Of a stretch of DNA of 34,902 nt, positions 29,694 through 34,737 are shown one piece after another. The stretch is from assembly GCA_017509895.1 (NCBI GenBank), contig JAFWOH010000008.1:1-34902 (forward strand). The letters are read 5' to 3'. A model generated the notes under the pieces. It was not told where the DNA came from, made no database searches, and was given only the letters and a program-made list of their open reading frames with translations. The position numbers were made by a program, and so were the translations under genes. How positions within the stretch are numbered: the first letter of the stretch is position 1; each line of letters begins with the position of its first letter. Source of the DNA: Candidatus Saccharimonadota bacterium. GTDB taxonomy: Bacteria; Patescibacteriota; Saccharimonadia; Saccharimonadales; Saccharimonadaceae.

Positions 29694-32567
29694 ATGGACG
29701 ATAATATGATTAAAATTCGGGGCGCTAGGCAGCACAACCTAAAGAACATCGATGTCGATATTCCGAGGGATAAGCTCGTCGTTTTGACCGGCCTTTCCGG
29801 CTCTGGAAAGTCCAGCCTCGCTTTTGATACGATTTACGCCGAGGGTCAGAGGCGCTATGTCGAAAGTCTGTCCAGCTACGCTCGAATGTTCCTCGGGGTC
29901 ATGGACAAGCCGGATGTCGATACTATTACCGGTCTCTCCCCGGCGATTTCGATTGACCAAAAATCGACCAGCCGCAACCCCCGCTCCACCGTCGCTACTG
30001 TGACCGAGGTTTATGATTATCTCCGTCTCCTCTTCGCTCGCGTTGGCGTGCCTCATTGTCCGATTTGTCATTCCGAGGTCTCCAGAAGGACCGATGAAGA
30101 CATCGTGAATGAAGTCATGAAGCTCCCGCTGGGCAGTAAGCTCATGCTCCTCGCCCCGATTGTCCAACAGAAAAAGGGCGAGTTCCAGCACATCTCCGAG
30201 CAATACACCGCGAAGGGCTTTTCGCGCGTCCGCGTCGATGGCATCGTGTATGCGCTCGATGAATTCCCAGAGCTAAAAAAGCAGGAAAAACACGACATCG
30301 AGATTGTCGTGGACCGCTTCATCTTAAGCCCAGATTTACAGTCGCGCATCGCCGGCTCCGTCGAGCAGGCTCTAGAGCTAGGTCAGGGAATTATTAAGCT
30401 ATTAAAAATTACTGACAATTCCACCGCCGTCGATCAAAATCCAAATAAAGACAATACCGAGGTCTACACCTTTTCAAAGCGCTATGCCTGCCCGAATCAT
30501 CCGGACGAGCTCATCCCAGAGCTAGAGCCGCGCCTCTTTTCTTTCAATGCTCCGCAGGGCGCCTGTCCGACTTGTACCGGCCTTGGCACGCGAATGGAAA
30601 TAGACCCGGCGCTAGTTTTTAACGAAAATCTCACTATCGCCGAGGGTGGCATCCGCCCCTTTAATCGCGTCAATCAGGATTCTTGGTGGCTCCGCCGCCT
30701 CGATGCGGTCGGGAAAAGGCATGGCTTTGATGTCTATACCCCGATTGGCCAATTCTCGGAGGAGACTAAACACATCATTCTCTATGGCACCGGCGAAGAA
30801 AAATACCGAGTCTTAATCGGTGGTTCTGGTAAATTTGCTAAAGGTACAACTTATGAAACTACTTATGAAGGTGTCATCCCGACCCTCGAAAGAAGACACA
30901 AAGAAACTGAGTCTGACTTTATCAGAAAAGACATCGAGCGTTTTATGCGCATCAAGGAGTGCCAGACCTGTCATGGCGCGAGATTAAAACCGGTCGTCCT
31001 CGCTGTTACCGTCCACGACCTCAATATCGTCGATATGTGCAGTTTCGATGTCGACCATACACTCGAAGTCCTGAATCAGGATCTTGGCTTTACTGAGTCC
31101 GAATTGCAAATCGCCGGCCCGATTATCAAAGAAATTAAAGAGCGGGTGAAGTTTATGCAGGACGTCGGCCTTGGCTACATGGAGCTCGGCCGCGCCGCGA
31201 ATACCTTGTCCGGCGGCGAGGCCCAGAGAATCCGCCTCGCGACCCAAATCGGCTCTGGCCTTCAGGGAGTTTTATATGTCCTTGATGAGCCATCCATCGG
31301 CCTTCACCAGAGGGATAACGATAAATTAATTGCGACTCTGAAACACTTAAGAGACCTCAAAAACACCGTCCTCGTGGTCGAACACGATGAAGATACTATG
31401 CTTTCGTCTGATTATATCATCGATATTGGCCCTGGTGCCGGCGCCAATGGCGGGGAAGTGGTCGCTGCCGGCACCCCAGAAGAGGTAATGAAAAATGATA
31501 ATTCCATCACCGGCCGCTATCTCTCCGGCAAAGAAAAAATCGAAACTCCGAAAAAGAGAAGAAAAGCGAAGCTTGGTCTAGAATTAGTCGTAAGGGGTGC
31601 TCGCGAAAATAATCTCAAAAACATCGATGCTCATTTTCCGCTCGGCGTGATGACCGTCGTCTCCGGGGTTTCCGGCTCCGGTAAGTCCACGCTCGTCAAC
31701 GAGATTTTAGCCAACGAGCTTCTTGCTCGGCTTCATCGCGCCCAGACCGTCGCCGGCCTCCACGATAATATCGAGGGCATCGAAAATCTTGATAAATGTA
31801 TCGTGATAGACCAGTCCCCGATTGGCCGCACTCCGCGCTCTAATCCTGCGACTTATACTGGGGTCTTTAACCAAATTCGTGAACTCTACACCAACCAGCC
31901 CGAGGCCGAAATCCGCGGTTACAAGCCCGGTCGTTTCTCCTTCAATGTCAAGGGTGGTCGTTGCGAAACTTGTCAGGGCGACGGCGTCAACAAAATTGAA
32001 ATGCATTTTCTCCCGGATGTCTATGTGACTTGCCCGGCCTGCCATGGCCGCCGCTATAATCGCGAGGCCCTCGAGATTAAATATAAGGGCAAAGACATTT
32101 CCGAAGTTCTCAATATGACGATTGACGAGGCGGTTAAATTCTTTGAAAACATCCCAAACATCGCCCCGAAGCTCAAAACCCTCCAAGAGGTCGGTCTCGG
32201 CTATATCCGCCTTGGTCAGCCGGCCACCACTTTCTCTGGCGGCGAGGCCCAGCGTATAAAACTCGCGACCGAGCTCGCCCGCCGCAGCACCGGCCGGACT
32301 CTCTATATTTTAGACGAGCCAACCACCGGTCTCCATACTGCCGATGTTAAGCGCCTTCTAAAAATCCTGAATAAACTTGTCGACGGTGGCAATTCGATGA
32401 TTATTATTGAGCATAATCTCCATGTCATCAAATCCGCCGATTGGATTATTGACATGGGCCCAGAGGGTGGCCAAGGCGGCGGCCGAATCATCGCCACCGG
32501 CACCCCCGAAACCCTCGCTAAAAATGCCAATACCCCCACCGGCGAATATTTAAGAACTGTACTATAG
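29694..32567 (+). CDS. uvrA: Excinuclease ABC subunit A (UvrA)
   Basis: Damage-recognition ATPase of nucleotide excision repair. 957 aa, normal size. First ABC module: [21 protein letters not shown], Walker [21 protein letters not shown], zinc-binding CPICHSEV region near residue 121, signature [11 protein letters not shown] near 504. Second module: [15 protein letters not shown] near 659, zinc finger CETCQGDG...CPACHG near 757-785, signature [11 protein letters not shown] near 846, Walker [19 protein letters not shown] (29653-29658) and AAGGAG (29678-29683) ten bases before ATG give a leadered mRNA. uvrB and uvrC are not in the window. Confidence 0.96.
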
Positions 32568-32867: not shown

Positions 32868-32928
32868 ATTGTAAAATGTAATTTAAACAACTCTATAAAA
32901 CCAGAAACTTTTATGCTAAAATGGTATT

Positions 32929-34737
32929 ATGAGTAATGTGTTAATAATTGGGAATGTGCATCAAGATGTCTATCTTCGTCTTGATGAACAAAAAAATCAG
33001 TTCGAAACCGGCGAAGGTGGGATTCCTTGGCTAGACTTGAGTTTCGACGGCAGCAGCCATCCATATATAAAAGAAACCCGCGTCTATGCCGGCGCGACTG
33101 TCGCACTAGAGGTTTTGAGCCGTATGGGCGCGAATGCAAAGATTATGGGTTCTCTCGCGGAGTTTAAGGGCGGCGAAATCGTCCCGGGCGAGCAGGAAAT
33201 TAAGACTACCCGCTATATCTTAAGCAAGGAAAATAAAATCACTTATCTCGTCCCGAGCGTACGTGAAAACACTCCTTGGGTCAATCCGGTAGATCCGGTA
33301 GATTGGATTTTCGTCGATCGTTCCGCCAAGATTACTCCTGATTTTATCAAGGGCTTAAAGGGCTTCCTCTCGATGTCCTCCCATACTCGTCTCGTAGTCT
33401 ATGCCCCGAAGGACATGACCGAGGCGGATCGCGAGCTCGTCGAGATGGCAAATCTGGTCTTCTCAGACGGCCTACTCACCGGTACAAAATACTATGGTTC
33501 TGTTTGCCAATTATCAGACCATGAGATTATTTTCGGCGACTATAAAATCATCTGGTCCGCCGAAAATGCCGATTTAATGACACATCTAACTCTCTATTCC
33601 ATCCTCGCCGCCACTATCTTTGGCGCTTTGCTTCGCGGTAAAACCATCGAGGATTCGATTATGATGGGCCGCGATAATGCCTTGAACTCCTCTCTGAAGG
33701 GTACGGCCACCCTTGAAAAATTAGAGGAAATGCTCTCCGTTGCCCGTTCCGAGGAGGCCGATACTGCGATGATTGCTAAGACTCTGATGACCCCAGGAAA
33801 GGGTATTCTCGCCGCGGATGAGTCTGGCGGCTCTATCCACAAAAAATTCGAAAATATGCGTATTCCTGATGACGAAGAGCATCGCCGCGATTATCGCAAT
33901 ATCTTCTTCACCACTCCGGACCTCGAAAAATACGTCTCTGGTGTCATCCTCTTCGACGAAACCGCTCGTCAAAAGGCGGACGACGGTCGCGATTTCGTCT
34001 CTTTCCTTACTTCTAAGGGTATCGTCGCCGGTATCAAGGTCGATCAGGGCCTTGAGAATTTTGAAAATTCCGAAGAAAAATATACTAAGGGCCTCGATGG
34101 CTTGCCGGGCCGTCTCGCCGAGTATTATAAAATGGGCCTCAGATTTTGCAAGTGGCGCTCCGCCTTTGAAATCGGCCCCGGCCGCCCGTCTGATATGGCA
34201 ATCGAAAGAAATTGCAATGACCTCGCAAAATACGCTCGCATCTGTCAGGATGCAAAGATGGTTCCGATTGTCGAGCCAGAGGTGGTTTATGACGGTAATT
34301 ATACGATTAAACAATGTGCCGATGTCACCTCAAAGATTCTTGATACGCTCTTTGATGCCTTGAATCGCGAAAAGGTCCGCCTTGATCAATGCATTCTAAA
34401 GGTCAATATGATTCTCGCCGGTAAGCAATATCCGATTCCGTCTTCTAAAGAAGAGGTCGGCCGCGCCACCGCCGAGGTCTTAAGAGTCCATGTCCCCCAG
34501 AGTCTCGCCGGTGTCGTCTTCCTCTCTGGTGGTCAGACCGTCGTTCAGGCGACAGAAAACCTTCAGGAAGTCACCAATAACGGCCCATTCCCATGGCCGG
34601 TCACCTTCTCTTTCGCCCGCGCGCTCCAGGACCCAGCCCTTACCGCCTGGATGGGCAACAATGAAAATGCCGATACCGCCCGCGAAGCCTTCCGCCAGCG
34701 CCTCATCGCTAATGCCGATGCCTTACAGAAACGGTAA
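32929..34737 (+). CDS. PfkB-like domain fused to class I fructose-bisphosphate aldolase
   Basis: 602-aa fusion. Residues about 1-270 resemble ribokinase/PfkB sugar kinases (NVLIIGNVHQDVYLRLDE start, YAGATVALEVLSRMGANAKIMG, and ALLRGKTIEDSIMMGRDNAL near the end), but the catalytic DTxGAGD motif is absent; the equivalent stretch reads ENADLMTHLT. Residues about 280-602 are a complete animal-type class I aldolase: PGKGILAADESGGSI (Asp), GIKVDQG (Lys107 equivalent), FCKWRSAFEIG (Lys146), VEPEV (Glu187), ILKVNMILAGK (Schiff-base Lys229), FLSGGQT and TFSFARALQ (Arg). The aldolase should be active; the kinase-like part is probably non-catalytic or regulatory. TGCTAAAAT (-10 at 32917-32922) ends 6 nt before ATG: leaderless. 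A long terminator hairpin follows. Confidence 0.9.
   Translation: MSNVLIIGNVHQDVYLRLDEQKNQFETGEGGIPWLDLSFDGSSHPYIKETRVYAGATVALEVLSRMGANAKIMGSLAEFKGGEIVPGEQEIKTTRYILSKENKITYLVPSVRENTPWVNPVDPVDWIFVDRSAKITPDFIKGLKGFLSMSSHTRLVVYAPKDMTEADRELVEMANLVFSDGLLTGTKYYGSVCQLSDHEIIFGDYKIIWSAENADLMTHLTLYSILAATIFGALLRGKTIEDSIMMGRDNALNSSLKGTATLEKLEEMLSVARSEEADTAMIAKTLMTPGKGILAADESGGSIHKKFENMRIPDDEEHRRDYRNIFFTTPDLEKYVSGVILFDETARQKADDGRDFVSFLTSKGIVAGIKVDQGLENFENSEEKYTKGLDGLPGRLAEYYKMGLRFCKWRSAFEIGPGRPSDMAIERNCNDLAKYARICQDAKMVPIVEPEVVYDGNYTIKQCADVTSKILDTLFDALNREKVRLDQCILKVNMILAGKQYPIPSSKEEVGRATAEVLRVHVPQSLAGVVFLSGGQTVVQATENLQEVTNNGPFPWPVTFSFARALQDPALTAWMGNNENADTAREAFRQRLIANADALQKR

Follow-up and report, generated by a model that had tools for sequence, protein, structure and literature searches.

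A PfkB-derived pseudokinase fused to class I fructose-bisphosphate aldolase in Saccharibacteria and apparently constrained after decay of the aldolase

The window analyzed here, a stretch of 34,902 nucleotides, is contig C37 of a 724-kb genome (92% complete). Named organisms closely related to it are Candidatus Saccharibacteria bacteria, two of them from roe deer gut; Saccharibacteria are tiny bacteria that depend on a host. It carries a single open frame of 602 aa (32929-34737, plus strand), for which length, frame, and coordinates were verified and which joins a PfkB-derived pseudokinase to a class I fructose-bisphosphate (FBP) aldolase (FBA). The pseudokinase domain (32929-33753, plus strand, residues 1-275) contains neither the GAGD nor the NxxE motif, and the aldolase domain (33754-34734, plus strand, residues about 276-602) has intact catalytic residues. 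The same architecture was found across the genus of the window, denoted g1 (the neighboring genus is denoted g47). Considering that the N-terminal domain is present in 55 of 60 same-genus genomes, the fusion is not a chance event. A scan of viral contigs detected no relatives.

The upstream neighbor of the fusion, located 361 nt away, is probably uvrA by sequence inspection (29694-32567, plus strand). Of the 23 other flank regions compared, 8 contain a probable uvrA gene, which is therefore probably not an operon partner. An operon explanation for the fusion was set aside: the neighbors, namely bL25, probable uvrA, a tRNA methyltransferase-like gene, L27, hrcA, grpE, and tpiA (most of these names come from sequence inspection only), differ between genomes, flip orientation, and for the most part serve housekeeping functions. 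Ribosomal protein bL25 is encoded close to the fusion, in either orientation, in 20 of 24 flank regions (L002-L004 and L148-L167). A possible extended -10 promoter element, TGCTAAAAT (32914-32922, plus strand), recognized by consensus match only, ends 6 nt before the ATG with the hexamer TAAAAT. A scripted search that allowed a single mismatch found a TATAAT-like -10 element, ending at most 12 nt before the start, at 35 of 39 homologous starts, mostly 6 nt before the start codon. This pattern suggests leaderless transcription from a promoter belonging to the fusion gene itself.

The aldolase half matches PF00274 over residues about 281-600 (E = 2e-112, 375.8 bits against a cut-off of 22.2) and the class I FBP aldolase family NF033379 (402.9 bits against a curated cut-off of 250). 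All ten active-site residues that were checked are present: D33, K107, K146, R148, E187, E189, K229 (the Schiff-base lysine), S271, S300, and R303, in the numbering of the rabbit enzyme. The protein is apparently a working class I FBP aldolase, and many solved structures exist among the relatives of this half. It shares the ten residues and the full-length domain with rabbit aldolase A and the NF033379 enzymes, but differs from them by the 275-residue N-terminal pseudokinase. Within g1, one subclade (L010, L011, L013, L014, L015, L017, and L018) has a fast-evolving aldolase half with the substitution S300A; its branch measures 0.93 in the aldolase tree, in which four members were included. E189D occurs throughout this subclade except in L010, which carries S271G, and L015 has R303Q. 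Genome G374 encodes an intact fused copy and, on contig C7 (99729-100724), a second class I aldolase match in pieces with stops, probably a pseudogene.

Residues 1-275 alone yielded no useful match in Pfam, NCBIfam, or PDB, and homology with PfkB was established through family-level intermediates. A profile built from 33 same-genus sequences matched GAGD-bearing PfkB proteins from the same family and order, which themselves score against PF00294 (PfkB) at 1e-29 to 1e-41. Profile-profile comparison with seven intact PfkB proteins using hhalign gave a probability of 99.0% (E = 2.7e-18, 266 columns), and, reciprocally, a hidden Markov model profile of the intact kinases recovered the pseudokinases. 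Given the hhalign score and the reciprocal matches, descent of the domain from PfkB appears secure, albeit by way of intermediates; the pseudokinase is related to the PfkB proteins that adjoin class II aldolases in other Saccharibacteria families. The first-pass annotation, made from the sequence by inspection, had described a complete class I aldolase, with all catalytic residues kept, fused to a PfkB-type domain that had degenerated, and the hhalign, PF00274, and NF033379 matches, together with the active-site check, bear this description out. AlphaFold2 modeling of the N-terminal domain from four sequences (the window and L002-L004) resulted in a mean pLDDT of 36.

The segment that replaces the PfkB signature DxTGAGD (33571-33600, plus strand) comprises residues 215-224, D-L-M-T-H-L-T-L-Y-S. 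A register with THLT directly under GAGD was replaced by an ungapped one, in which T218-H219-L220-T221-L222-Y223-S224 aligns with D-R-T-G-A-G-D. In this refined register, Ser224 occupies the position of the catalytic Asp, and T-L-Y takes the place of the GAG anion hole. The absence of GAGD itself was upheld: it was found in none of the 50 pseudokinases of g1, g47, g68, and g149, and none of the alignments revealed an intact catalytic Asp at another position. Among these 50 homologues, the place of GAGD is usually taken by THL[TS]-x-x-S, with THLT or THLS in 44; the THL positions vary in three of five g47 fusions examined, in one g1 member (L137), and in g68 and g149. The NxxE motif is lost in 14 of 14 sequences, with Asp or Glu in place of Asn and a gap at the Glu position. 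The glycine loop has lost its substrate Asn, and the TDGxxG strand has likewise been replaced. Several deletions, including some in the nucleotide site, have shortened the domain by about 60 residues compared with its intact relatives.

Conservation of the domain follows a distinct pattern. The first strand and a lid-like region are conserved, and D13, G55, R95, D130, T218-H219-L220, S224, and N250 are invariant in the 33 same-genus sequences, D13 corresponding to the sugar-binding Asp (D16 of RbsK). Several of the conserved positions are new, that is, absent from intact relatives: R95, D130-R131-S132, T218-H219-L220, and S224 (nearly invariant in this comparison). By alignment to E. coli ribokinase, the new residues fall at positions of its sugar-binding cleft and of phosphoryl transfer. 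The ligand cleft thus appears to have been remodeled.

GAGD-bearing PfkB domains fused to class I aldolase were identified in two genera of the same family, g45 (L095, L096, and L101) and g164 (L131), each as one chain of 666-669 aa. Fusions from g43, g57, g149, g153, g47, and g1 lack GAGD. In the aldolase tree, the g45 and g164 fusions are the first of the family's aldolases to branch off (support 97/95 and 99/97) and group outside the remaining family members (99/97). Support is weak (83/36) at the base of the degenerate clade, which leaves room for more than one loss of GAGD. In the simplest history, the kinase was still active when it was fused, and its function disappeared afterward, on one or several occasions.

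Outside the family, a different arrangement was found. In seven genomes, each from a different family, a standalone PfkB gene lies about 20-120 bp (distances taken from match coordinates) from a class II FBA gene on the same strand, and these seven PfkB proteins match the intact profile at about 1e-150. Class II aldolase was detected in none of the 36 g1 genomes searched, as against 21 of the 24 from other families. From this distribution we infer the following order of events. The ancestral state would have been a PfkB gene beside a class II FBP aldolase gene, an arrangement widespread in Saccharibacteria; in the family of the window, the class II enzyme would have given way to a class I aldolase fused with a PfkB of this kind; the fused kinase would then have lost its catalytic residues, and a second, unfused PfkB would have stayed intact. 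The intact PfkB proteins of g46, g49, g53, and g56 (L088-L092, L098, and L099) are extended at the N-terminus by about 165 aa, giving a chain of about 500 aa, and in L088-L092 a second PfkB gene adjoins the extended one.

Upper glycolysis in Saccharibacteria has been described as missing or ambiguous at the phosphofructokinase (PFK) step (PMC8386444, PMC7304191, PMC12815258): PFK was reported missing in Saccharibacteria (PMC8386444) and very infrequent across CPR (PMC7304191), and, for the saccharibacterium TM7x, a PfkB encoded beside an aldolase was predicted to act as phosphofructokinase (PMC12815258). Classical PFK (PF00365) was not detected in any of the 36 g1 genomes searched. This agrees with the lack of a classical phosphofructokinase for which the fusion had first been singled out; nevertheless, that argument is weakened by the TM7x prediction and by an intact GAGD-bearing PfkB in the same genome. 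A second, unfused PfkB with GAGD is present once in 33 of the 36 g1 genomes. In the genome of the window, it resides on contig C36, in the order GAPDH, RpiB-type isomerase, ribulose-phosphate epimerase, and PfkB (cluster L116:3565-6704, PfkB itself L116:5685-6704), a cluster conserved in other g1 genomes. The best NCBIfam match of this PfkB is ribokinase, far under the cut-off. The notion of a genome without any candidate sugar-phosphate kinase was accordingly rejected.

The most informative result is that the two halves of the fusion have been lost asymmetrically. Among the g1 and g47 sequences on the pseudokinase tree, 12 of 48 retain the pseudokinase with a degenerate or missing aldolase. 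On the full tree of 50 sequences, which includes g68, 13 lack a working aldolase, implying at least nine changes of state, although these counts are not frequencies given that the sequences were partly chosen for short frames. The aldolase half is gone in L012, L028, L136, L137, L138, and L139 and, in g68, in L097; it is a shortened remnant without most of the checked catalytic residues in L025 and L140-L143, and lacks several of them in L144. Conversely, the g1 and g47 surveys turned up no intact class I aldolase that lacked the pseudokinase, if contig ends and one broken assembly (G011) are disregarded; elsewhere in the family, there is one standalone aldolase (G404, g173). Genome G005 (97% complete) encodes a pseudokinase, with neither an aldolase nor an intact PfkB detected. 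The apparent double pseudoenzymes keep a frame open over 429-469 aa (L140:1070-2446, L141:674-2065, L142:647-1936, L143:544-1833, L144:480-1886, and L025:1498-2907).

The dN/dS of the N-terminal domain (Nei-Gojobori) was 0.04-0.09 in four pairs with estimable dS. Two of these pairs, with dS above 2.5, are unreliable, and the other two, which are better conditioned, gave 0.087 (L023/L026) and 0.076 (L142/L143). In L142/L143, the aldolase half is degenerate, and its remnant has a dN/dS of about 0.13. The low value for the N-terminal domain in this pair indicates that the pseudokinase is apparently still constrained, under purifying selection, even after decay of the aldolase. Among the close relatives of the window, the N-terminal domain diverges faster than the aldolase, with 78-85% identity versus 94-95%.

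Considering that the pseudokinase is kept where the aldolase has decayed or vanished, it likely has a conserved role of its own, independent of the attached aldolase. On balance, we lean toward a non-catalytic module, for ligand binding or for docking and scaffolding, with its own conserved role. Under this reading, a PfkB-family sugar-phosphate kinase domain would no longer have the residues needed to bind ATP and transfer a phosphoryl group, but would have kept the PfkB fold with a remodeled substrate cleft (D13, G55, R95, D130-R131-S132, T218-H219-L220, and S224), and the remodeled domain would act by binding a ligand or a partner. The first-pass annotation had tied the role of the pseudokinase to its own aldolase, through regulation or substrate delivery. 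As the sole role, this does not fit with persistence of the domain without a working aldolase; in the protein of the window, the domain may additionally position, gate, or otherwise regulate the aldolase.

An alternative that appears unlikely, albeit the best placed of those considered, is a heteromeric scaffold, in which the cell's separate, intact PfkB (type A) is the pairing partner of the pseudokinase, so that an active kinase is tethered to the aldolase. PfkB proteins commonly dimerize, and the single intact PfkB in 33 of 36 g1 genomes would supply a partner. In g49, g53, and g56, two PfkB genes are adjacent, and in G033 the fusion follows the GAPDH-rpiB-rpe-pfkB cluster on the same strand with one gene in between. 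Nevertheless, three genomes, G224 (98% complete), G262 (97%), and G013 (91%), encode the fusion without a detected intact PfkB; the pseudokinase of G005 has neither of the partners to be bridged; and in the genome of the window, the fusion and the intact PfkB are on different contigs. Such a scaffold is therefore plausible in most genomes but not universal.

Acquisition of a new enzymatic activity seems improbable. Here, THL[TS]-x-x-S, R95, and D-R-S would form a new catalytic site, for example that of a sugar-phosphate phosphatase or isomerase, in the old kinase cleft, which is compatible with the location of the new invariant residues and with persistence of the domain without an aldolase. 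No known catalytic motif was recognized, though, and the THL positions vary in the g47 fusions and L137 mentioned above. We attach equally little weight to the domain being a structural relic, kept only for folding, solubility, or oligomerization of its fusion partner: faster divergence than that of the aldolase in most pairs and conservation of the first strand and the lid-like region would be expected of a relic, but the domain is retained in six g1/g47 sequences with no aldolase partner at all (L012, L028, and L136-L139), and dN/dS is low in L142/L143. Retention of the sugar-binding D13 notwithstanding, a divergent but active kinase that uses other residues is very improbable, given the genus-wide loss of the catalytic Asp, the GAG anion hole, and NxxE and the deletions in the nucleotide site.

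The preferred reading, a non-catalytic module, has partial precedents. FLN1 and FLN2 are PfkB-type proteins in a plant plastid complex, where their role has been called unknown, and sugar kinase-like proteins that regulate without catalysis, such as yeast Gal3p, have been discussed (PMC3409070). FLN1 PDB entries were matched by the profile of intact PfkB relatives; however, FLN1 and FLN2 are subunits of the plant plastid transcription machinery that are not fused to an aldolase, and the likeness is at the level of the PfkB family. In Nanosynbacter lyticus, TM7x_02415, a PfkB-type putative phosphofructokinase, is encoded beside the aldolase TM7x_02420 (PMC12815258), an arrangement from which the fusion may have arisen; these are separate genes, the kinase is presumed active, and the comparison is one of gene arrangement, not sequence. 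The NF047869 and NF041633 fusions likewise combine a sugar kinase and an aldolase in one chain, but are named bifunctional or fusion enzymes and involve other aldolase types, whereas the window encodes a dead kinase with a class I FBA. Thus, kinase-aldolase fusions and complex-bound PfkB-type proteins are already known, and in the literature searched, with most subscription journals outside its scope, we found no description of a bacterial PfkB pseudoenzyme or of a PfkB-FBA fusion in Saccharibacteria.

More tentatively, the sugar kinase of the kinase-aldolase step of upper glycolysis might have become a non-catalytic regulator or a new enzyme with a ligand site of its own, first fused and then repeatedly freed, sometimes leaving both halves as pseudoenzymes. 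The locus would explain part of the PFK ambiguity in these bacteria, the aldolase-linked PfkB having turned into a pseudokinase while the other, intact PfkB remained. It also provides, in phylogenetic order, the steps between an intact kinase-aldolase fusion and a pseudokinase that apparently outlives its enzyme, so that recombinant proteins of close relatives would allow a direct test of why a metabolic enzyme is retained once dead.
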